Part shown: positions 1,980 through 61,470 of the stretch, one piece after another
How the letters are laid out: each line of letters begins with the position of its first letter
Position numbering within the stretch: position 1 is the first letter of the stretch
Origin: Patiria pectinifera
Lineage: Eukaryota; Echinodermata; Asteroidea; Valvatida; Asterinidae
DNA length: 64,000 bases
NCBI GenBank assembly: GCA_029964075.1
Contig: CM057138.1
Location: forward strand, 7,620,932 to 7,684,931
Direction of reading: 5' to 3'
Made by a program: the position numbers and the translations under genes
Notes under the pieces: generated by a model
Database searches by the model: none
What the model saw: the letters and a program-made list of their open reading frames with translations, nothing else
Told to the model about the DNA's origin: nothing

Positions 1980-2640
1980 ATCACACAGCTGTTTTGGCTA
2001 CAGTTTTATCAAGAACTGTCATGTAGGACTTTTTGATGACGTCACACATTTTTTGAAATTTTGTGCATATATCTATGGCCTACCGAACCTAACACAAAAG
2101 GAAATTTGAATGTAGCATGTTTTTTTTTTCAGGAGATATGGAGATGAGCTGAAAGAAATGAAAACTCAATAAAATTCCACATGATGACATTATCGTGACG
2201 TCACCTCAATTTCATCTATAACACATCCCGCTATGGCTACATACCAAGTTTCATTCCAATCAGCAGTGTAGTTCTCTAGATAGAGATCCTTGAGAAATGC
2301 ACTTTTAGGATGACATCACTTGACACATGATGACGTCATGATGACATCCCACGATTTGGCATCATTTTCAGATGATGACCTAAGTGTGTGCCTAGTTTCA
2401 AGTCAATCTAATTACTTTTTATGTCAATTTTTGCAATTAGAAAAAATATTAAAATTTTAAAAATTCATAAAATATCAGTTGATGACGTCATCATGATGTC
2501 ACTTCAGATTTTATTATCAGTACCTACCCACCCACTAAGGTTTACAATGATCGGACACTAAAAGTCTTGCATTTTGGATCTCCAATGGCAAGTACCCCAA
2601 ATAAAGGTGCTCATCTGACATTATTCTGATATTATTATAG
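1980..2640 (-). repeat. CRE-motif-rich dispersed repeat, reverse copy
   Basis: About 660 bases homologous in reverse to blocks at 5620-6850 and 49780-51010. It has recurring TGACGTCA octamers (around 2036, 2200, 2330 and 2485), the block with GGGATGTGTTATA (here TATAACACATCCCG), and CTTTTTGTATTA-like words. No reading frame persists. It lies in an intron of argininosuccinate synthase or just beyond. Confidence 0.7.
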
Positions 2641-5368: not shown

Positions 5369-5437
5369 CTTTTTTGCTCCAACCTTAAGAGCTTTGGTTC
5401 GGATCTCCTCAAAATCATCATCTTGCCCGACATCAGC
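5369..5437 (-). CDS. ASS1: Argininosuccinate synthase, coding exon 2
   Basis: This 69-base exon encodes 23 residues, ADVGQDDDFEEIRTKALKVG and then AKK. It is bordered by a good acceptor (TTTCAG at 5438-5443, read on the minus strand) and donor (GTAAGA from 5368 downward). Phase 0 at both ends fits directly onto exon 1, giving IAYT-ADVGQDDDFEE, which matches the IAYxANxGQxEDFEE block of the family. It belongs to the N-terminal nucleotide-binding domain. The enzyme joins citrulline and aspartate using ATP to make argininosuccinate, for arginine synthesis and the urea or nitric-oxide cycle in the cytosol. The next exon (expected to start VFIEDVS-like) was not found and probably lies left of the window. 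Confidence 0.88.
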
Positions 5438-5619
5438 CTGAAACAACAAAGGGTGGAGGAAAGTGTTCGGATGGAAACAAGTTTTTTAATTTTTTTAACA
5501 ACAAAAAAAACACACTAATAAATAAATCCTTAAAATTATGCTGAATAATAATGTCTTCGAAGAATGTGCAGGTCTATTTTGTGATCTAAAACACTGTAAA
5601 ATGAGGGTGTTATGTACGT

Positions 5620-6850
5620 GTTCATTATGCAGGCTTTTCCGACATCAGCGGAAAAGCATTGTTTTTGTATGATTTTCTTTTTCTTCTTCTTGGTCCTCTA
5701 TCCCAATTCCCATAGACTTTGTACATGCTTCATTTTTGGAGTCACTTTTCACAATAAACAACCTTCAATCTTTATAAACTTGGCACAGACTAAGACCCCA
5801 TAGATAAGTCGTGCAAGGACGAGTGACGTCATGATGACGCCATCAAGTGACATGTGAAGTCATCTGAAAGGTTCATTTTTCAAGGGCCAATATCTAGGGA
5901 ACTACATTGTACAAGGCCGATTTGGGTTGAAATTTTGTATGTACACATACTGGGATGTGTTATACATGTAGATGAAAATTGAGGTTACGTCATGACGACG
6001 TCATCGTGTGATTTTATTTATTGATTTTTCCATATTTTCATCTCATCTGCATATCTCATGAACAAAACATGCTACATTCAAAATTCTTTTTGTATTGTTC
6101 GTTAGGTCATAGGCACAAAATTTCAAAAAAAAGTGTGACTTCATCATGACGATATCAAAAATGTGATTTTTTTAAAAACACATACCGGGTACAAGGGAAC
6201 ATTCGATCGTTATGAAACTTGGTTGGTAGGTAGATATTGATAATAGTATAATTGATAATAGATAATTGATTAAAATCTAAAATGACCTTAAAAATGACGT
6301 TGACAGATACCGGGGTATTTTATTAATTTATAAAATGTTTAATTTTTTTTCTAAATGCACAATTTGACATGAAATTTGTAATCAGATTGACTTAAACTGG
6401 GCACAGACTAAGACCTTCACATGATCATGACATCAAAATTCTTTTTGTATTAGGTTCAGTAGGCCACAAATATACAATGTATACCACACAATTTCGAAAA
6501 ATGTGTGACATCATTATGACGTCATAAAAAAACAATTTTTTGAAACACATATAAGGGAATGGTCAATCGTTATGAAACTTGATGGGTAGGTAGGCTTTGA
6601 TAATAGTATTCAAAATCTGAAGTGACCTCATGATGACGTCATCAACTGTTTTTTTATCAATTTATGAATTTTTTTTTAATTGCAAAATTTGACATGAAAT
6701 GCCGTTACCTGTACCGGTGGATTGACTTCGAACTAGGCACAGACCAAGACCCTCAGCTAATAATAATATTGTTCCTGAACAAGTGCCGTTGTAATTACGT
6801 CATCATTTGTCATGTGACGTCATCTTACAGGTGCTTAATTTAAATTTTTA
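5620..6850 (+). repeat. CRE-motif-rich dispersed repeat, direct copy
   Basis: Begins with a hairpin (GCTTTTCCG ... CGGAAAAGC, 5633-5657) followed by a T-rich stretch, then modules in the order seen at 49780-51010: GACGTCATGATGACG, a GGGATGTGTTATA block, CATATCTCATGAAC, CTTTTTGTATT, and an AATCGTTATGAAACTTG block. Modules then repeat, so there are about two partial units. Octamer TGACGTCA occurs near 5823, 6515, 6637 and 6817. It is inside intron 1 of argininosuccinate synthase. No protein is encoded. Confidence 0.75.
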
Positions 6851-9474: not shown

Positions 9475-10559
<1,085 letters not shown>

Positions 10560-10712
10560 AGCTCTGAATTCATGGTCTGCAGGTAATTCTTGAGGATGTG
10601 GATTGAGTTCAGCCTGGGGTTATGGTGCATGTGCCCTTGGGCAAGGCATTTTGTCACTCACTGCTTCTCCCACCCAGTAAATTGGGTACCTGTGATGGCA
10701 GGGATGGTTATT
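10560..10712 (+). mobile_element. Degraded tRNA-headed SINE fragment
   Basis: The part GTGCCCTTGGGCAAGGCA, then TTTTGTCACTCACTGCTTCT, CACCCAG and GGGTACCTGTGA matches the SINE at 63392-63741 closely. The tRNA-related head is eroded (GGTTATGG in place of the B box). The right end is cut by the hairpin-headed repeat that starts at 10714. Confidence 0.75.
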
Positions 10713-10940
10713 AGGTGTTGGGCCTTTAGCCCAACACCTATTGTTATTGTAAGAATTTACTGTTTTTGTTGTTATTCTTCTCAGCAAAAATGTTTCCAGA
10801 ACTGTTTGTCAAAATGAAAACATATTGAGTTTCCATTGTCGATAAATAAATGCACAACCCACTGAAGATGTGCTTTTTTGTAATTACGTCATTATGACGT
10901 CATAATGAGTCATGTGACGTTACTTCAAAAAATAATAAAT
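10711..10940 (+). repeat. Hairpin-headed CRE repeat, short copy
   Basis: A perfect 12-bp stem, TAGGTGTTGGGC with GCCCAACACCTA around a CTTTA loop (10714-10742), is followed by TTGTTATTGTAAG, a T-rich tract with TTTTTGTTGTTATTCTTCT, and near 10890 ATTATGACGTCATAATGAGTC then CATGTGACGTTAC. This has the same layout (hairpin, T-rich tract, CRE octamers) as 5620 and 49790 but a different hairpin sequence. Confidence 0.6.
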
Positions 10941-21369: not shown

Positions 21370-22249
21370 TGCAGCATATGCAGTGCGCACGCGCGATTTG
21401 CCTAGTAACCACCCTCATATGCACGCGCACTTACTTGAAGGCGCGGTCGCTAATCCAATGACCGAGCGTGTTTTTGCGCCAGTTACCAAAAACACGTTTT
21501 GGCTTTGGTCATTGGTTGAGCGTTTTCGTGATATCGGTTGGCTGGAGTGACGTCACGGTTCCAACCAAAACTAAACAAATGAGGGCGCTAGCGTGCGTGC
21601 GCGCTTTCGTACATAGGCCTACGTACATTGTACATGACGTACGACCACTGGGCAAGATTACCATATGCGAAGTTCACTAATTTTCCTCTGTATTGACTAA
21701 CAAGCCCCCAAATAGCAATTTCATGTCATCAAAGTCAATTTGAGCAGTGAAAAAATACAAGCATTTTCTTAGAAAACACTTAGAATTTTTCAGTCCAATC
21801 TCATAGGGTTTGTACACAGGGTGTTGAATGAACTTCGTATATGGAAATCTTTCCGACCACTGATCTCTATATAAAGACTGGATAGCGGATATGCATACAA
21901 CATTCACACAGTAGACTTTGCATATTGACCAATTCGCCCCCGGTCTCACGAAGATGGCCGCGTAGAATGCGAACGTTCTACGCGTAAATACGCGCGCATT
22001 GTATCAACAGTTGACACGCATTTTGGTCACGTACACATATTATGATGTTCTAAAAGGGACACATTTCCGTACTGATTATTATTTCAAAAATGCCGAAAAA
22101 GTGATTTGCGGCATTATAAAAGTAACCACGACGTTAGAAAAATTGTATTAAACCTTGGTCAGTTGGTCAGTGGTGGTGGCCAAAATATATAGTTCGTCCT
22201 TCGAAATTCGAAGATGACAGCCAACATCTCCATACTAGTTGGTGTTGTG

Positions 22250-26267: not shown

Positions 26268-27194
26268 GGCTGTCGAGCGTAATCTGAGTCCCACGCGCAA
26301 GTTTAAACCTGCGCGTGCAGGAATTTACTTGCTTCAAATTGCGCGCGCAAGTTTAAACTTGCGCGTGCAGGAATTTTACTTGCTTCAAATTGCGCGCGCA
26401 AGTTTAAACTTAGACGGCACCCTTCCCCGACTGTTTCTAAGCATTCTAAGCACCCCGGTTGGTAAGGACGCTTCATCAAAATGAAAATACTTTTTAAATT
26501 ATATGAAAATATCATTTCGTAAACCAAGTTTATCAAATTGTAGAGCACTCAATGTCTTTCTTTATTAAAAAAAAGTTAATGTTAATTACACCCAGTTGCA
26601 AATTAAAACATATAAGGTCCATCTTGGTTGCCGCACAGAAATAACACGCACCCTTATACAAAGCAACATCCCTACATTTTGTGAGGGATTATCTGAATAA
26701 AGGTTTTGTATTTTTAAAAGGAAATGTTGAAAAAAAATCATATTAATCAACATTGCATACAAAAACAAAAAAACAATAGGATAGTGAAACCATAGAACTA
26801 AGATCCCCAAACGCCCCCCCCCCACCTCAAATTACTCAGGAGAGTGCGAAATACTTAATAGTTAAACCCTAGTCCATAATTAAACTCCCTCAGTCATGGG
26901 AAGTTCGTGGTGGAAAAAAACAAATGCCATGCAAAGTAGATAAAAACGCCGTCACAATTTCGTGAGCCTGTGATTGCCATTTGCTAACATTGTACGTACA
27001 CTTTACCTTGTGCACGCAAGTTTAAACTTGCGCAAGGGTCTTAAATTGCGATCGCCTTTGCGCAAGTTGTAACGTGCGCGCGCAAATTAAAATGGCGCGG
27101 TGTAGTTGGCGTGCTTCAAGAGTCACTCGCGCAAGTTTAAACTTGTGCGCGCAGGTTTAAACTTGCGCGTGGGACTCAAATTGCGCTCGACAGC
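26268..27194. mobile_element. Inverted-repeat element G1 rich in GCGCAAGTTTAAACTTGCGC palindromes
   Basis: The left end GCTGTCGAGCG, TGAGTCCCACGCGCAAGTTT and the right end AAACTTGCGCGTGGGACTCA, CGCTCGACAGC are inverted copies of about 45 bp. Inside each end, the palindrome AAGTTTAAACTT flanked by CGCGC recurs (three times at 26298-26412, three times at 27018-27170). The middle is AT-rich and non-coding. No clear target duplication was seen. Confidence 0.75.
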
Positions 27195-28843: not shown

Positions 28844-31086
28844 TTAGGTTTTGGTTCCCTCCCCAATGACGTGGTCTACTAAGGCTTGTGTTAACTGGTT
28901 TAAGTCGGGTATGGTGGTGATAGTGTTTGGCAGGTTGTTCCAGATGGGGATCGTTGACGGGTAGCAAGTGGTGCTGTAGAGCTTGGATTTAGCGTTGGGT
29001 CGGTGGTATGAAAACTGGTGCAAGCTCCTAAGGCTTTTGTTTTCAACGAGGTTGTGAGAGATCTTGTACATCATGATTAGTCTAGCAATGGAGCGATGTG
29101 TTTCTAGTAGAGGCCAACCAAGCTGGTTCAACATATCTGTGACACTAGCAAGCCTGGTGAAGTTGTTACAACACATCCTGGCAGCGTATCTCTGGATACC
29201 TTCAAGTTATTTTTTTTCTTCCTCAGTGAAGGTGGCCCAGCCGCAGACACCATACTCTAGTTTGGGGCGGGCGAGAGACTGGTAAAGTTGGGATTTAACC
29301 TTTCTGCTACAGGATTTGAAGTTTCTGATGATGATGCCAATGGTCTGCCTAGCGTTGTTGGTAATTTTGTTGATGTGACACGACCAGCTACAGTCAGCAC
29401 TCAGGATGAGGCCAAGATATGGGTGATTGGTAGTAGTTTGGAGAGGTCTCTGGTTGATTTTATACGTACTGATGAGTGGTTCCTTTTTGGTGGTGATATG
29501 CATGGCAAAGCATTTGTCTGGATTGAATTTCATTTCCCATTCCCTCTCCCATCTGCACAGAGCATCCAAATCGTTTTGCAGGGATGTAGCATCAGATGTT
29601 TCTTCTACTTCTCTGTAAAGTATGGCGTCATCAGCGAACAGTCTGGTTTTCGAAGAAACATATGAAGGGATGTCATTAACGTAGAGGAGAAACAGCAGCG
29701 GTCCCAAGACAGTGCCCTGGGGGACTCCAGGTAAGACTTCAGCTATTTTAGAACTTTTACCCTCCAGGACGACTTGCTGGGTAGATGTTGTAAGGAAAGT
29801 TGAGATCCACTTGTGCACATTACCGGTGATGCCATAGTGCCTCAGTTTGGTGAGAAGCCTCTGATGTGGGACGCGATCGAATGCTTTTGAGAAATCAAGT
29901 AATATTGCGTCAACCTGTTTGCCTTTCTCGATTGATTTAGCTATGTCATCAATGGTAATGAGGAGTTGAGTGTCACACCCTCTGCTTTTTTTAAACCCAT
30001 GTTGGCAGTCTGTCAGAATCTGGTGCTGCTCAATGTGGAACATTATATGACGATGGATGACGTGCTCAAGACATTTACATACCACAGATGTTAGTGATAT
30101 GGGGTGGTAGTTACTGGGGTCACTTTTACTGCCTTTTTTTAAGACAGGAGACACGTTGGCTGTAGTCCAGTCATCTGGGAGGTCACCAGATTTTAAAGAT
30201 TGGTTAAACAGCGCTGCTGGTAGTGGTGCCAACTCCACGCTGCATTCCTTAAGGATTTTATTAGGAATGTTTTCTGGTCCCGACGCCTTGGAGGGGTTCA
30301 AATCACGAAGAAGTTTCTCGATACCCTCAGCCACGATCTCAAGTGATTCAATGTCTGGAACAGACTGCTGTAGATTAGGAAGGTTGGATGTGTTTTCCTT
30401 GGTGAAAACTGATTTGAAGAAGGAGTTGAGAATGTTTGCCTTCCCAACTTGGTCTGAAACGGTGTCAGTGCCATTCTTCAGTGGATGGACGCCTACATTG
30501 TCAGTTCGTTTTGATTTGACATATTTCCAGAACTTTTTTGGGTTATGTTGGAGATCTTCCTCAAGCATACTGGAGATATATTGCTGGTGAGCTCTGTTGA
30601 GGTCTCTTCTATACATTTTCCGGGCGCTTCTGAACAGTTTGGAGTCCTCAGCAGAGTTAGTTTTCTTCTGTTTATTATACATACGTTGAAGCTTTCTGCT
30701 TTGACGACGGAGTGCAGGAGAGAACCATGGCAAGTTAAATCTCGTTGAGGAGTACTTGGATGGAATGAACTTTTCAGTAAGCGCGTTGAGGGTGTCCCTC
30801 AGAAGAATCCAATTTTCATTAACTGTCCTTAGATTCAATTCATGGAGGAAATTTTCACCAAAGTTCTTCAAATCATAATGGAGGTCTTCAAACTTCCCTT
30901 TTTTGTACAGGAAGAATTTCCGACGAACTGGTTTGGTAGTTACACATCCAGCGTTAATCAGAATTGTCACCATGCTGTGATCTCCACAACCAAGAAGCAC
31001 CCTGGTGGATTCAACGATGGTGGGGTTGTTTGTCATAAACAAGTCAAGAATACTTTCCTTCCGGGTGGGCTCAAGAACAAATTGGT
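28844..31086 (-). pseudogene. LINE polymerase (endonuclease end, reverse transcriptase, C-terminal domain)
   Basis: Coding order: LDQFVLEPTRKESILDLFMT (end of the APE-type endonuclease), a linker with ALRRQSRKLQRMYNK, then the RT palm with DFSKAFDRVPHQRLL, GVPQGTVLGPLLFLLYVND, LFADDAILY (catalytic FADD) and NHPYLGLILS. It continues to LEYGVCGWATFTEEEKK. There a TAA (29207-29209, in a run of eight As) interrupts; the same frame stays open after it (LEGIQRYAARMCCNNFT to the end at 28844). About 730 codons are otherwise open, so the copy is fairly young. Confidence 0.9.
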
Positions 31087-31860
31087 CTAAGGGTTGAAGG
31101 AGTTACAGATGTCAACTAACTTCCTGCACTGAGCTGAAAACTGGGCGCCAACCTTAACCAACCTATCATCCCAATTGATGTCTTTCAAGTTGAAATCTCC
31201 TCCCAACTTAGACTTTGTTTTTGCTGTGTCACGCAGGGAAGGATTTCTCTTCCTGGTTTTACAAAGCGGTTTGGGGGATGATGCAGCAAGGGGTTGTACA
31301 TCACTCAAAGACTGGTCTGAGTCAAGTGGAGTAAAGGGATTTTCAGTTTCAAAATCAGTCACAATACTAAATAGCGAACCAGAAAAATTGGGGTGACCAC
31401 ACCCATCACAAATCCATGAGGTACTACAATTAGCCAGCAGGTTGTAAGTTTTACTACTCATGTTGATGCAAGCGGCATGATTCCATTTTTCACACTCTTC
31501 ACATTGGATACCCTTCTCTGGATAATAACCTACTTCCTCTCCACAAACACCACACGGTGCAGGGGTGTCTTCAAGCGAAGAGTTTAATGGAGGGCCTGGG
31601 TTTCGGTTGACATCAATTCCAAGTCCAATCAACAAAACATGGGTCCAGGATAGGCCATGAGAGTTTTTCAGAGTTTTGATAAATTGTCTACGAGGCAGTA
31701 ACGCAGTTGCAAAATAACTGGTGCTTGTTGTGCCAATATCATGATCACATTCTGTCAGCCTTGTGTCTACGGTTTTACTTACAGTTTTGCAGATCCCATC
31801 ACTAATACGTGCAAAAGCAAGCAGGAATCCAATCTCAAAATAACTAATGGTGAACTCCAT
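31087..31860 (-). pseudogene. LINE 5' frame: NPGP motif, PHD finger, fused to GGDFN
   Basis: 257 codons from a true ATG. Residues 77-90 read LIGLGIDVNRNPGP, matching the 2A-like DxExNPGP pattern except that E is replaced by N. Residues 103-154 form a C4HC3 PHD zinc finger (CGVC, CEEC, WNHAAC, CDGC). Residues about 222-226 are GGDFN, the APE-endonuclease motif, and the frame stops soon after at FNP. In complete relatives several hundred endonuclease residues would lie between the PHD finger and GGDFN, so an internal deletion is inferred. The PHD finger is typical of the first frame of CR1/L2-like elements. Confidence 0.8.
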
Positions 31861-49784: not shown

Positions 49785-51015
49785 TCTCCGTGTTTTGGGC
49801 TTTTCCGCTGAAAAGCGGAAAAGCCTTTGTTTTTGTTCTGATTCCCCCCCCTTCTTTTTTATCTTTTTGGGTCCACCCCAAATCGCATTGACTTTGTACA
49901 CATTTTTGGTGTGACACACTTTTGACCTAAAACAAAGTCCTATTCCAATGAAACTTATCTCAGGTAAACCCTATACTATAGTGAAGTTGTGTCTCAAAGA
50001 GTGACGTCATGATTACGTCATCATGGGTCACGTGACGTCATCCAAAAAGTGCATATTTTGAAGGCCTACATGTATATCTACAGACCTATAAGTCAGATTG
50101 GGTTGAAACTCGGTATGTTTGTAGACCGGGATGTGTTATAGGTAGAAATTGAGGTGACGTCACGATGACGTCATATTTTTTTAATTTTTTTTTGGAGCTT
50201 TAAGCCATATCTCATGAACGCAAAATGCAAAACTGAAAATTCTTTTTGTATTATGTTTGTTAGGTACATGTAATACATGTATGTCCAAAATTTAGAAAAA
50301 AGTGTGATGTCACGATGACGTCATCAAAAATGCCATTTTTGAAAACACATGAAGGGGAAGGCCCAATCGTCATGAAACTTTGTAGATAGGTAGATGGTGT
50401 CACAAGTATGCAAAATCTTAAATGACGTTACCATGACGTCATCAGTAGATTTTTTTTATGATTTTTTAAATATTTAAAATTTTATTACACTTAAAAAATG
50501 TTACACTTTGTTTCATGGCAGTGGCGTAGCCAGGAATTTTTCAGTGGGGGCTGGAACATTTCATGGGGGGGGGCGTCATGTAGATCAATGATAATTTTTT
50601 TAGAAACTCAAAATCTCAGTGGGGGGGGGGGCGACTGGGGGGCCACAAGGTTTCATGGGGGGGCTGTCACCCCCACGCCCCCCCGTGGCTACGCCACTGT
50701 TTCATGGGATTAACGTCAAACTTGATGCACATCAAGACCACAATAAAAATGTTTGCATGACGTCATCATGGGACACGTGACGTCATCAAAAATGTGCATA
50801 TTTTTAAGTCCTTTATACAGAACAGTACATGTAAGTCCGATTGGGTTGACACTTGGTATATAGGTACACCGGGATGTGTTATGGGTAAAAATTGAGATGA
50901 CGTCATGATGACGTAATTGTGCGACTTTATATGAATTTTTGAATGTTTGGCATATAAACTCAATTTTTTAAAATGTGACGTCACGACGACGTCATCAAAA
51001 ACGCGATTATCCCAA
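49785..51015 (+). repeat. CRE-motif-rich dispersed repeat, best copy
   Basis: Begins with a perfect 11-bp-stem hairpin GCTTTTCCGCT/AGCGGAAAAGC (49798-49823), then TTTGTTTTTGTT and a T-rich tract, then modules with paired CRE octamers: TGACGTCATGATTACGTCAT (50000), GTCACGTGACGTCATCC (50025), GGTGACGTCACGATGACGTC (50153), GATGACGTCATCAAAAA (50315), CCATGACGTCATCAG (50433). After a hAT MITE the modules start again (50755-51000). No protein. It lies in the last Vav intron. Confidence 0.8.
50519..50699. mobile_element. hAT-type MITE (family H3)
   Basis: CAGTGGCGTAGCCA to TGGCTACGCCACTG, 181 bp, with an 8-bp duplication TTTCATGG (50511-50518 and 50700-50707). It splits the CRE-rich repeat. G-rich tracts inside. 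Confidence 0.92.
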
Positions 51016-51529
51016 ACGCATATAACAGAAGTTCCCATTGTTGTGAAACAGTTTATACATACATTTTAACATCGCTCTAGTCTTTTAATAAGCCTGATCC
51101 AGTTTTTATGGTATCATTATTTCAGATATATAAGTAATTTTGGATTATTTTTTTAATACCTTATCAATTTTTAAAATATTGTATAATCCAGGTTCTCGTA
51201 CTTTTTAGATGAATCTCTTTTTATTTATATGTTTTATATGTTTTATATGTATCAATAATGCTATACTATTGTAAGCAAGTCTCTTCAGACACATTATAGT
51301 GGCTGCCGACTTGGTGTTATTTAAAAAATAAACCAGAATAATAATAAAAATAACTGGTGATTACAAAATCTTACCAAATTACAGTATGGTACTAGTTCGC
51401 AACATTATCACCGTTCAATTTGTTTCCCATTTTACTTCATATGGGCTGAGCATGTAATTGACCAAAAAGTGTCAAATCAGGTGAAGAGTGTTGGCAAAAA
51501 AAGTGTTTTACGAGTTTCAGTAAAATGAT

Positions 51530-51960: not shown

Positions 51961-54900
51961 GCCAAAAAAAAAGTCTCCGGTTTCTGGTATGCGCATGTGT
52001 CGCCAATATCGGAGATGAAACTGGCATATGGCAAAAAAATCGGAAAATAGGCCGAACAAATACGTGTCCGAAATCTGGGCCGCACTGCAGTTACACACAT
52101 GTACATGCATGTACAATACACTAAATGCCCAATTTCCGGACACCAACTCCTGCTTTATTTTCGATTAATAAATACCTTGGAGAGTTGATGGTTTCTGATT
52201 GGTCGAGACTCGATCACAGGGCCGGGCATTAACGGTGATAATGGACCGGCTTCAAAGATCAAGCGAATAAATGGCCCCTGAACCAGCATTGATTAAGCCC
52301 CGTTTAGCCCCATGCAAGCCAATGATTGGTCAAAATATAGTAACAGTCCTGCGGTAGCTTGTAACAATAGAGCACTGCACATGCGCTCAACCCCCATTGC
52401 GTGAGACTGACGCGCGCGTACGCAACACAGTTGCTAGGAATGCGTGCGTGCGCGCGCGTAAGGACGTTTTGAAACGACATCGTACAGCATAGCAGTGCAG
52501 CTACGACGACATCAAAGCAAAACTTGACAAATTAAAACCAGACAAGTGCCCAGGGCCCGACCAGATTCACCCCAAAGTACTCAGAGAATGCAGTGAGGAG
52601 CTGTCATTACCATTGTACCATGTCTACAGAAAGTCACTTGACAGTGGAGAACTACCTAAAGACTGGAAAACAGCCAGGGTAACCCCTATCTTCAAAAAGG
52701 GATCTAGGACAAAATCTGGTAATTACAGGCCAGTCAGCCTGACATGCATTCCCTGCAAGGTAATGGAGTCATTAATCAAGGACAAGATGACTGAGTTCGT
52801 ACAACAACATGAGATACTATCTGACAGGCAGCACGGATTCACCCAGGGTAAATCATGTTTGACAAACCTGCTTGAAACACTAGAAATGGTTACCCATGAC
52901 TTAGATGAGGGCAGCAGAGTAGACATCATCTTCTTGGACTACCAAAAAGCCTTCGACTCAGTCCCACATAGACGACTACTAGGAAAACTGTCTACATATG
53001 GAATTGAAGGAAAGATAGCCAAGTGGATTGAGGGATTTCTAGTTGACAGATCTCAGGTAGTAGCAGTAAGGAATGCTGAATCAAATCATGCAGACGTTGC
53101 AAGCGGAGTTCAAGGATCGGTGCTAGGACCGCTTCTTTTCATCCTGTACATCAACGACTTACCTGGAACAGTAAAATCAAATGTTCAGATGTTCGCCGAT
53201 GATACTAAAATGTTCACAACGATAAAGTCACCGGAAGACGCAGTGTAACTACAAAGTGATATCGATGCACTGCTGAACTGGTCCAAGACATGGCTCCTAC
53301 GATTTAACGCAGACAAATGCAAAACCATGCATATGGGAAACAACAACCCAGGATGTGTCTACCAGATGGGAGATACCAAACTACAAGAAACAGATCAAGA
53401 AAAAGACTTTGGAGTGTATATCTGCAACAACTGTAAGTCGTCGGTTCAGTGTGCAAAGTCTGCCCAGAAAGCGATGAATAGCCTCAGAGTTATCAAAAGA
53501 ACCTTCAAGCATATAACCAAGGATAGTTTTGCTGTATTGTACAAAACATACATAAGGCCTCATCTTGAATACTGCGTCCAAGCATGGAACCCAGGGCTGC
53601 GGAAAGATATCCACACATTGGAGAAGGTGCAAAGAAGAGCAACCAAACTGGTTCCTGCTGTAAGACATCTTAGCTATCCAAACAGGCTAGAGGCACTCGA
53701 CCTGTACAGCCTAGAACAAAGGAGAACAAGAGGCGACCTTATAGAAGTGTTCAAGATTTTCAACGGATTTGACAAAACAGAACCAACAAGATTCTTCAAA
53801 ATCTCCAACACAAGAGAAACAAGAGGACACAACATGAAGATCTTTCAGACTGGGATGAACAAAGCTCTGAGATGCAGGCAAGATTTTTTCTCCCAGAGAG
53901 TAGTCAACACTTGGAACGATCTACCAAGTTATGTTGTGAATGCCAAGACCACAAATTCTTTCAAACATGAGCTCGACGAGTACTGGAAGAGATATGGGGT
54001 CATAAAGGCTTATAAAGCCTAATACTTATTCCCATTAAATCGTAAGTGTAAGTGTAAGTGTAAGTGCATAAAATGCCTGAATTCCGGTTAGAGTAATGGA
54101 GTCATCAATAAAGAAGTTCACCTCTTACTTGAGAAAGTGGAGGGAAAAGTCCGAAAGACAAGGGCACCTTTCATAGTGCTTCAATCATGTCCACGATTCA
54201 ACCACACAACTCCACTACTCCACTTGCATTCATACATGGGATAAAAAAATCAGGCATTATCGTCTTTCTCTTCCAACAAATGCCAGTGAAATGTTTCGAT
54301 AATGCTCTCTTCGCTATCCTCGAGATAATCATCATGATTTTTAAAGCATTGCATTTTGTGCAACTAAATCTGAAACCTCCAAAAATCGCACAACATAATG
54401 ATTTTATCCACTGGCACTGGATCGTTCACAAGGCTACCCGTTCCGGACCAGCCATGTGCTAGCGGACGGTACGATGCGGTACGTACGCTGGTACCATTGC
54501 ATATTCGCACGCACGTGCGACACAGTGATTTTTCCATGTCGCCTGTCAATGTTTAACCTTTTGTTCAGCCGGAGAAGGCTCCGATCAGTGTTATGCCCTG
54601 TGTTTCTACCGTTGAAACACTCCAATAACGACTGGTGAAAGAGATTAATACTACGTTCGCGATGATTTTAACTTGCCATTTCCATCGACTTTTCTTCGAA
54701 ATTATGGTTGAAATAAAATGACATTTTGTGAAAAAAATCGTTAGAAAATCTAATTTTTTGGGACGCACTGTAAAAAAATCGGAAATTTCGTTGGAAAATT
54801 CAAAAAGTTGGATTTCCGATTAAAATCGGAAAAGTTTCATCTCTGGACCATAGCCATGCGCGTCGGCAAAATTAAAACTTTTTTTTTTCAATGTAAGATG

Positions 54901-55629: not shown

Positions 55630-57327
55630 ATCACAGTACATGTATATCAGCGTGCTCCACCAGGCTGATTTAAAAATCCGTAATCCATGGTATCTGTGGT
55701 TCATTACGAATCTATAGTTTGCTGTAGATTCATGAAAATAATCTACACTTTTAACAATAGTGTGATGTCACAAACATAGTTTAATTCTGAAATAGTTTGT
55801 CTGAATGATAACAAAAATGGAGAGCAAAATAAACTAACATGTCAGCTTCTTGAAAAGCACTCATAGTATTTGTTGGAGTGCTCTCTGTGTGGTTTCCTTC
55901 TCGACTTATTTGCCAATTAATTTCCTTAATTCAGCTGGGGTTTGGATTATTGTCACGGTACATTGCCAATGACAGTGAGAGGGTTAATATCAGGAAACAT
56001 GAATATTAACACTAACACATATTCTTCTCAGAACCACCTCTCTTTTATACATAGTGGAATCCTGTGGTTTACCTGCAAACTTCTAATAACTTGTAACCAG
56101 GTCGGGTTTCAGTACTTACTTTTACCCGACAGGTTCCTTTACTCCAGCATTCATTTCATAACTTTTGTAACTTCGTGGTTGTGTCATTTCACACGCATGA
56201 CATGTGAGCAGCCATTGCGATCATGCTTTTTGCCGAGCACCCTCTCGCGGCCAACTGAACTTTTTTTTGCACAGCGCGCGCCGCCTAGAATTTTGCTCAA
56301 CTATGCAAAGGGCGTAGCGAGCAGGCGAGTTTAACATTCCAAGCACTTTGTTCAAATTAGATAGCTGACATTCCAGGCGTTTCGGTTAGTTTTCTTGTAA
56401 GGCTAGCTGCGAAATGTTTGTGAATCTCCATTTTTCCTTTTGAAACAAAAACAAATTGGTAACTTCTGAACAACACGAGTATGCAAACTTTAACTTAAAT
56501 TTTAGTGTTGCTATAATATTTATGTTCAAATTTATCATTTGAAATAGACTTTCCCATTTTCCCAAAACTATCGGTTTTCTTTAAAGTGCTATGAACATTC
56601 GGGAATTTGTTATTAGGGCATGGTATATATTCTTACTTCATTATTTTATAACATAACTTGGTGAATAATTCATTTCTATTTTCGGATTTAAAATTGCACT
56701 ACATGTATATAAAATATTCATATTCTTGCATAATTGTCATTTAAATAATTCTTCTGTTTGGGCAACAGTCATTTTATGCCACAGTTTGTTCCTTTACTGA
56801 TGCATTTATAAAAAGTGTTTTGATTTACAAATAAGGAAAACAGTTTTTCCCAAATTAATTTGAATTAAATATTGTTAATAATGTATTTTGACCTGGAAGT
56901 TATTCCCATAATTCATTAGTCATTTATTGTTTTTATGCATTTCAGATACTATCCTTGGAGTGACAGCTCACTAGCCTATTTTCCCTTTTTGACGGTCGTT
57001 TTATATACCCAACAAAGTTCCGTTCTACATACCCAAAGTTCCTACTATAATTCTTTTTGTAAATACCCGATCATTTGTATATATATTGTCTCGTATTTGT
57101 CTTGTAAATAAAATATTTTGATATTATTGTCGAACAACAGAAAATTTCGCTCCGCCAAGTTATTTTTATAAGTGGAGCCACTCGGTTGTAGGAGAGTGAA
57201 CCATAGTAAACCAATTTATTTAGCTCTCCCCGGTTACAAACTGAACGGATTTTTTTCCGTGGGGGGGGGGGGGTAGTGGCACTTTCTTGGGTTTTAAGCA
57301 ATACTTGACAACAGAGATGGGACTGAC
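55630..57327. other. Last Vav intron, upstream part
   Basis: AT-rich with no exon or clear element. Around 56190-56330 there is a GC-richer patch (AGCGCGCGCCGCC). Confidence 0.45.
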
Positions 57328-57509
57328 CCTTCCTCCGACTGCACCCTTCCACCAGCCCCTGTTCTGGCCAGCCTTGCTGATGATATCCACTCTGTCTCCC
57401 TTCTGTAGGGGCAACTCGCCAGACTCACGAGCTGTGAAAGGGAACAGGGCCCTAGCTGTGCCAATGACGGTGTAGCGCTTAGGCTTAGGATTCTCTCGAC
57501 CAGACGGAC
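57328..57509 (-). CDS. Vav-family exchange factor, exon encoding most of the C-terminal SH3
   Basis: An acceptor (ATTTGCACAG, ending at 57510 on the minus strand) and donor (AGG-GTCAGT at 57327) bound 182 bases that encode 60 residues: GRENPKPKRYTVIGTARALF, PFTARESGELPLQKGDRVDI, ISKAGQNRGWWKGAVGGR. ALFPF is the ALYDY motif, GDRVDI the middle strand and GWWKG the conserved tryptophan pair. Adding the exon at 49222-49278 completes the domain with IGYFPYTYVEED. The GTAxAxxxFxARxxxELSLxxGD pattern with a YVEE(D/E) end points to Vav, a Rho/Rac guanine nucleotide exchange factor in receptor tyrosine-kinase signalling, where this SH3 recruits partners. The SH2, first SH3, DH and PH exons were not found here. 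Another SH3 protein is possible but fits less well. Confidence 0.82.
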
Positions 57510-57604
57510 CTGTGCAAATAAACGAAGAAGTGATTAAACAATTTAAATACCACTGCCGCTGGAACAAACTTCTAATTAATACGAAAGCGGAGCGCAAAGC
57601 CCTT

Positions 57605-58030
57605 ACGTTGTGGCTTAATTTGGAATATGGATGCTCTGTGATGCAATCTGAGGTGATTCCCAGCCACTTTCATTTGACTTTTTTAGCAAAAGTTTTTTTG
57701 AGATTATAAAGACAATTTATTTCATTATTTTGTTAAATAATGAAATAAATGTTGCTCTTAAAACGTTTAACTGTACTGAAAAGTGGAGAACCCTGTATTT
57801 TTATCTCCATTTTTGGTTCCATCTAATTCTGGAGAAAGAATTGTATCATTACGCATGACATCGCATGTAAATATTATTGTTGCAAGGCTGCTTTCTTACA
57901 TTTAGTAAATTTCGTTGTGTATGTTTTGTTTTATTTTCAAGGACTTACGGCGTGGGGCCACAGGGCTAGGGCCCCGCTTTAAGGCCCCGGAAAATGTTGG
58001 ATTCTGGATGCACTGTGATGAAATATACTG
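57605..58030 (+). repeat. P1 repeat family copies and an AT palindrome
   Basis: GGATGCTCTGTGATGCAATC near 57629, and TTACGGCGTGGGGCCACAGG, GGCCCCGCTTTAAGGCCCCG near 57947-57990, belong to the P1 family. A perfect 15-bp-stem palindrome TTTATTTCATTATTT/AAATAATGAAATAAA lies at about 57716-57749. Confidence 0.65.
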
Positions 58031-60999: not shown

Positions 61000-61470
61000 T
61001 ACCTTGTCTAAAGCATAAAAACATATATGTATCATAATTTTGTAGATGTTTGCATATTTTAACCTTACCACCATATTTCACCAACAAAAAAATACTGAAG
61101 TCAAAATTATTTTTGCAACTGGTTTGTTAAGTCTTCAGATATATTCACAAAAGTGTAAACAAATGTGTGACCTCATTATGAAATCATCAAAAATGGGAAT
61201 TAAAAAAAAACTGTACAGTATGTCTTACAAAAGTGTTCGTCTGACTGTTTTAAAAATAATTACAATACTATGAGGTCAATTTTGAAGATGTTGGTTGTGC
61301 AGATAGTCATGATAGTGGTGCGGCATAGCCCCAATATGCCAAACGATTGTGCAATTTGTGATAAAAGCATGAAACTTTGCATGTTGGTTCTTCATGACAT
61401 GAAGACAAATTTCAGATATGGAGCCATTTCATATCTGACCTCTGGTGACCTTTGAGAGGTCAATGAACTT
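61000..61470 (+). repeat. Decayed CRE-repeat relative
   Basis: CTTCAGATATATTCACAAAA, GTGTGACCTCATTATGAAAT, CATCAAAAATGGGAATT and CATGAAACTT words follow the order of the CRE-rich repeat, but the octamers are lost. Confidence 0.5.

Follow-up and report, generated by a model that had tools for sequence, protein, structure and literature searches.

What kind of DNA carries a dense set of perfect CRE octamers in a sea star genome, and does their retention reflect selection by the host, selection on the carrier, or neither? The question arises from a 64-kb window (the whole stretch of DNA analysed, C10:7620932-7684931 in an assembly of 613.5 Mb), where TGACGTCA, the exact CRE consensus, occurs 22 times against a mean of 0.69 and a maximum of 3 in 100 dinucleotide-preserving shuffles of the window. 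The family offers a case in which retention of a transcription-factor motif within a repeat can be divided between selection acting on the transposon and selection exerted by its host.

The octamers and their repeat family

With the octamers masked for comparison, 17 of the 22 sit in sequence resembling family copies fetched from elsewhere in the genome. The remaining five are at positions 1333, 6815, 10895, 21548 and 60860; BLAST within the window aligns the surroundings of those at 6815 and 10895 to the family, and those at 1333 and 21548 belong to a different repeat, seen at 1185-1395 and 21400-21610 as two copies that are 96% identical and have one TGACGTCA each. An octamer-rich dispersed repeat had been proposed in an earlier, sequence-only reading of this DNA, and these counts bear it out. 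The copies which that reading placed at 1980-2640, 5620-6850 and 49785-51015, and a decayed one at 61000, are homologous. Most of a further copy, placed at 10711-10940, is not: only about 10882-10931 aligns to the family (best piece 82.6% over 46 bp), and this part is therefore called a short remnant (Table 1).

Table 1. Family copies and their parts in the window
Feature	Position	Strand	Basis or detail
5' terminal palindrome, subterminal repeat GGCTTTTCCGCT and its complement	49798..49825	+	arms 49798-49809 and 49814-49825; fold z -6.5
Left flank: T/TTC-rich microsatellite-like stretch and leader	49826..49995	+	alignment of 20 genomic copies
Central tandem modules in the order A-B-C-D-E-A-B-.., with paired TGACGTCA	49996..51061	+	self-comparison and alignments
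MITE inserted within module E, with CAGTGGCGTAGCCA as its inverted ends	50519..50699		inverted repeat and flanks
More diverged copy, modules twice	5632..6844	+	5' palindrome at 5632-5657
More diverged copy, modules D-E-A-B-C, ends not recognised	2034..2551	-	BLAST within the window
Short remnant with two paired octamers, of which one is perfect and the other has a mismatch	10882..10931	+	BLAST within the window
Decayed fragment, module C	61036..61201	+	BLAST within the window

The ordered modules of this dispersed family, part of the same earlier claim, are real by both self-comparison and genomic alignment. Two copies, 5632-6834 (+) and 49798-51061 (+), have a common order and sequence at about 68-75% identity (BLAST within the window); the copy at 2034 has full-length relatives that are at best 76% identical to it. 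The copy at 49798 is split by a MITE, which we take to be hAT-like, with an 8-base target duplication, TTTCATGG. No stop-to-stop frame of at least 100 aa is listed for 49798-51061, which thus has no coding capacity. Left ends are present at 49798 and 5632, and a 3' end was not recognised in any window copy.

The family consensus has module A at its left, followed by modules B, C, D and E of 127, 156, 118 and 172 bases. The module flanks are related to one another, with a mean pairwise identity of 0.51 against 0.39 (maximum 0.42) in 15 shuffled sets. Most modules end in a pair of TGACGTCA octamers 11 bp apart, about one helical turn. The pair, TGACGTCA-NNN-TGACGTCA, is perfect in modules B, C and D of the consensus; in module A the second octamer is TTACGTCA, one letter off, and module E has lost the first. 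Among successive perfect octamers fewer than 60 bases apart, in the window and a 200-kb genomic sample, spacing from start to start is 11 bp in eight cases, 20 bp in five and 31 bp in one. The octamer is itself part of the family consensus (11 perfect octamers in 971 bases). The modules also form higher-order arrays with a period of about 573 bases, one of which lies at C2:4619058-4620577. At 50027-50040 of the window a composite, GTCACGTGACGTCA, joins an E-box palindrome to an overlapping CRE; module A of the consensus has it too.

Element ends and classification

The element begins with a palindromic 5' end, GGCTTTTCCGC..GCGGAAAAGCC, followed by a T/TTC-rich stretch, the central tandem modules and a 3' end. 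The 3' end, met in many fetched loci, consists of the subterminal repeat in inverted form and then a palindrome ending in ..CTCTAG. The position of the 5' end follows from a left-flank search of the genome (749 candidates, 40 scored, 42 matches listed). Among the 42 listed matches, 22 begin at query position 3, which is window position 49798, three begin at position 5 and 15 further inside; position 1 is reached only by the window itself and one 48-base piece. Twenty copies aligned from base 49798 have the palindrome, the T/TTC-rich stretch and the modules in common, and they are preceded by unrelated DNA, by a T-run or by the terminus of another element of this kind. The 5' start is preceded by TT in 17 of the 18 copies (of these 20) matched by script, a count that includes the near duplicates L038 and L039; T-runs mask any target duplication.

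A strict right-end pattern occurs at 482 places, its reversed control at none. For 20 of the 40 left-flank matches a scored right end follows on the same strand, at most 15 kb downstream, where random placement predicts about 0.02; in 16 of these it lies 822-1733 bases away. End pairs in another order or orientation were not found within 15 kb of the 40 matches. Nine of the 16 paired copies start either at the outermost base or two bases further in, and in the others the match falls short of the outer left end by 9-53 bases. The 16 include L040, a complete 922-base copy that supplied the right-end query. The arms of the palindrome covary between copies, as GGCTTTTCCGC/GCGGAAAAGCC and GGCTTTTTCGC/GCGAAAAAGCC. 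Folding of the 3' palindrome gives a modest signal (z of -2.7, -1.2 and -3.6, the last folding another way).

On this architecture the family is best read as a putative non-autonomous Helentron (HINE). As a transposon it belongs to a known kind. The published description of HINE/DINE-1-like Helentrons, in the part available to us, has the same 5' palindromic subterminal inverted repeats with an inverted copy before a 3' palindrome, as well as a microsatellite, central repeats, T-rich insertion and no coding capacity; the difference is that here the central repeats carry paired TGACGTCA (PMC4067079). The Cg_HINE elements of the Pacific oyster likewise have satellite-like central repeats between two flanks, and the flanks are alike, with a subTIR, an IR and a microsatellite on the left and a subTIR and a palindrome on the right; CRE pairs are not mentioned in the available part of that report, and the likeness is one of description, not of sequence (PMC7492417). 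Among the literature matches listed, no paper is titled for a CRE-bearing HINE, and TGACGTCA and Helitron come together only in work on Arabidopsis. A canonical Helitron (5' TC, 3' CTRR, insertion between A and T) was considered and rejected, since the 5' start reads TTGGC in 17 of the 18 matched copies; the 3' CTAG fits the CTRR of such an element, but the 5' side does not.

Several element ends stand head to tail in L008, L030, L036, L038 and L040, as though the T-rich end of one element had served as the insertion site of the next. In L007, short repeats in tandem that contain GGAAAGACGTCTTTCC palindromes adjoin the element at about 1-800 (on the reverse complement).

Genomic distribution and Rep genes

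A 26-base octamer-pair pattern, with at most two mismatches, matches 1119 places in the genome (603 forward, 516 reverse), and its reversed control none; in IMG/VR the pattern has no matches. In a 200-kb sample (20 stretches of 10 kb, chosen at round coordinates on six contigs), 24 of 36 octamers, but only 4 of 100 random sites, fall in family-like sequence. On this evidence a single transposon family may be the source of many of the genome's perfect CREs, in a share that is uncertain because 20 of the 24 come from a single stretch, L016. Work on cAMP signalling in this animal by ChIP or ATAC would need to allow for the family's CREs.

Rep/helicase genes are plentiful, with 148 PF14214 matches in the genome; judged by eye, many of those listed lie on the single contig C7, mainly in its first half (about the first 23 Mb). 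An autonomous partner with the ends described above was not found among the two Rep families read. One of these, a long-frame family, was set aside because perfect octamers and terminal palindromes are absent from the stretches read around three copies. For the other, the part covered was upstream sequence within its open frame.

Divergence of octamers and flanks

Differences from the consensus were counted separately at CpG and non-CpG sites. The alignment holds 41 sequences (38 left-flank loci, two window copies and L005), and those with more than 300 usable sites form a set of 35 copies, of which the left-flank loci, L049 included, are the 32 left-flank-chosen copies. In these 32, non-CpG sites differ less often in octamers (69/1771, 3.9%) than in flanks (1383/20604, 6.7%; p 1e-6). 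Their CpG sites are alike, with 66/591 (11.2%) in octamers and 178/1302 (13.7%) in flanks (p 0.14); the octamer CpG decays about like other CpGs. The lower octamer divergence that the sequence-only reading would count as support for function, with CpG decay set apart, is therefore seen at non-CpG sites and not at the CpGs of left-flank-chosen copies. A smaller set, composed of 19 left-flank loci and the 49798 copy (the near duplicate L039 and w56 left out), gives 28/1027 against 680/12248 at non-CpG sites (p 3e-5) and 34/344 against 109/830 at CpG sites (p 0.14); its singletons do not differ between octamer and flank (p 0.23 and 0.79).

In eleven more diverged elements the non-CpG contrast is 4-fold, with 23/434 octamer sites (5.3%) and 1029/4539 flank sites (22.7%) changed (p 1e-21), an inflated figure because most of these elements were noticed through their octamers. 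Their CpG sites differ at 19/144 in octamers and 117/286 in flanks (p 2e-9), in the same biased set: five members, all from the window, drew attention through their octamers, L005 and L006 were obtained with an octamer pattern, and L016a, L016b and L012, though found in sampled stretches, were selected after an octamer table and BLAST. Two pieces of the 5632 copy in the set overlap by about 80 bases. The sole member taken by its left flank, L049, has 3/48 octamer and 81/490 flank differences on its own (p 0.06). At non-CpG sites the octamers have thus changed less than the intervening DNA as the family diversified, by an amount left uncertain by the octamer-based discovery of many diverged copies.

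Terminal and internal branches were separated in a second set of 32 copies, which includes the 49798 copy, leaves out w56, L005 and L049, and has positions near gaps masked. On its terminal branches octamers changed at 30/1733 and flanks at 450/19461 non-CpG sites (p 0.13), a ratio of 0.75 with an approximate 95% range, calculated by hand from the counts, of 0.52-1.08. The CpG counts there are 39/580 and 76/1263 (ratio about 1.1, p 0.60), and eleven random flank words are equally conserved in 6.2% of draws. On internal branches of the same set the octamers show 0.197 and the flanks 0.403 changes per site (resampling P 0.013). In the 35-copy set the terminal non-CpG contrast is 47/1938 against 834/22383 (p 0.002), but this set adds three more diverged copies, whose long branches mix source evolution with decay; its terminal CpG counts are 48/647 and 126/1424 (p 0.31), and its internal changes, scored as changed sites, are 14/66 and 228/771 (p 0.16).

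The pattern fits constraint on the octamer's non-CpG letters along the active element lineage, followed by scant protection or none. It suggests constraint in source elements and the absence of clear host protection of insertions, although a weak host effect on insertions may exist. Of the selection on octamers that had been proposed for this locus, the slower change across the family stands; a significant slowing on terminal branches does not appear in the 32 copies.

Explanations for octamer retention

We give a probability of roughly 0.68 to the whole account in which the family is a non-coding HINE, its octamers are constrained in the source lineage and they are used by a bZIP-type host factor. 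The HINE, whose ends are the 5' palindromic subterminal repeat and the 3' inverted repeat with its palindrome and which sits in T-rich DNA, would owe its spread to a rolling-circle Rep/helicase supplied by an autonomous partner. The octamers most probably would bind a host factor of the CREB/ATF type, the simplest guess for their user because the octamer is the consensus of that class. Such a factor may maintain access to the source element, or its expression, in germ-line cells; selection would then act on the transposon lineage, and effects on host genes would be incidental. CREB binding would need the octamer CpG, and against this account stands the finding that octamer CpGs differ about as often as flank CpGs (p 0.14).

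Young copies could seem to have retained their octamers simply by being young, and recent spread alone was one of the causes offered by the sequence-only reading. Its support is that 24 of the 32 left-flank-chosen copies differ from the consensus at less than 8% of non-CpG flank sites. It fails as a sufficient cause and is very improbable, for these 24 copies still differ less in octamers (40/1365) than in flanks (873/16137; p 3e-5) at non-CpG sites, and diverged elements keep their octamers too. A less improbable idea, though we still think it unlikely, is hitchhiking, in which the octamers would be the most homogenised part of a satellite-like array subject to unequal exchange or gene conversion and would have no binding function. 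The higher-order arrays with a period of about 573 bases are as it would predict, and satellite-like central repeats feature in the available description of oyster HINEs (PMC7492417). Homogenisation, however, would not be expected to single out the octamers in modules that otherwise drop to about 50% identity.

If insertions acted as CREB/ATF enhancers, purifying selection by the host would keep the octamers. Window copies have changed at 10/138 non-CpG octamer sites and 362/1400 flank sites, differences that include source evolution because the copies came to notice through their octamers and in part represent other subfamilies; one copy appears to lie in an argininosuccinate synthase intron, and the terminal non-CpG ratio is below 1 (not significantly). 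The functional heat-shock elements of Caenorhabditis Helitrons, as far as that study is available to us, are a precedent (PMC6927752). We nevertheless consider host selection quite unlikely, as terminal branches lack significant protection, octamer CpGs mutate about like others and four of the eight octamers in the 2034 copy have lost their CpG. Decidedly unlikely as well is the idea that the pairs are sites for the element's own Rep instead of for a host bZIP protein. Direct repeats about one helical turn apart resemble the iterons of rolling-circle replicons, and here such repeats are arrayed between the terminal palindromes of what would be a rolling-circle element, with non-CpG letters that have changed less than the flanks across the family. 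But the octamer is the exact consensus of a host factor's site, the CRE, and the Rep family read around three copies has no perfect octamer in those stretches. The Helentron signals described, in the part of the account available, are terminal (PMC4067079).

Sites for transcription factors borne by transposons are already known in Helitrons, as the available part of the Caenorhabditis work documents (PMC6927752). There too a rolling-circle transposon disperses such a site, and Helitrons supply many of the genome's heat-shock elements (PMC6927752). The site here is a CRE and there an HSE, and the carrier there is a nematode Helitron; binding and gene induction were shown in that system (PMC6927752). 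The paired CREs might serve the transposon's own life cycle, as sites where a germ-line bZIP protein docks or as iteron-like Rep sites, and might be maintained by selection at the level of the transposon, the family having incidentally seeded a large share of the perfect CREs in the genome. We put this forward tentatively and as on the whole doubtful; if true, a rolling-circle transposon could rewire cAMP/ATF regulation, like heat-shock regulation in Caenorhabditis.

Gene context

An ORF at 10024-10266 (-) holds an argininosuccinate synthase exon (PF00764, E 7.8e-9). Near 5379-5441 (-) a stretch reads ADVGQDDDFEEIRTKALKVGAKK, and we take it by likeness to be the next exon of that gene; on this reading the 5632 copy is intronic, because it lies between the two. 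A limited motif scan found no further argininosuccinate synthase exon beyond 5379-5441. The earlier placement of two copies in introns of this gene is therefore supported for the 5632 copy, given the exon reading, and lacks such support for the 2034 copy, which lies beyond the last exon found. For an SH3 exon at 57220-57669 (-), the top PDB matches are SH3 chains of Vav. Long open frames at 29207-31102 (-) and 52493-54022 (+) look like reverse transcriptase of non-LTR retrotransposons. Tandem repeats at 26294-26411 and 27128-27169 contain the palindrome CGCGCAAGTTTAAACTTGCGCG or part of it.
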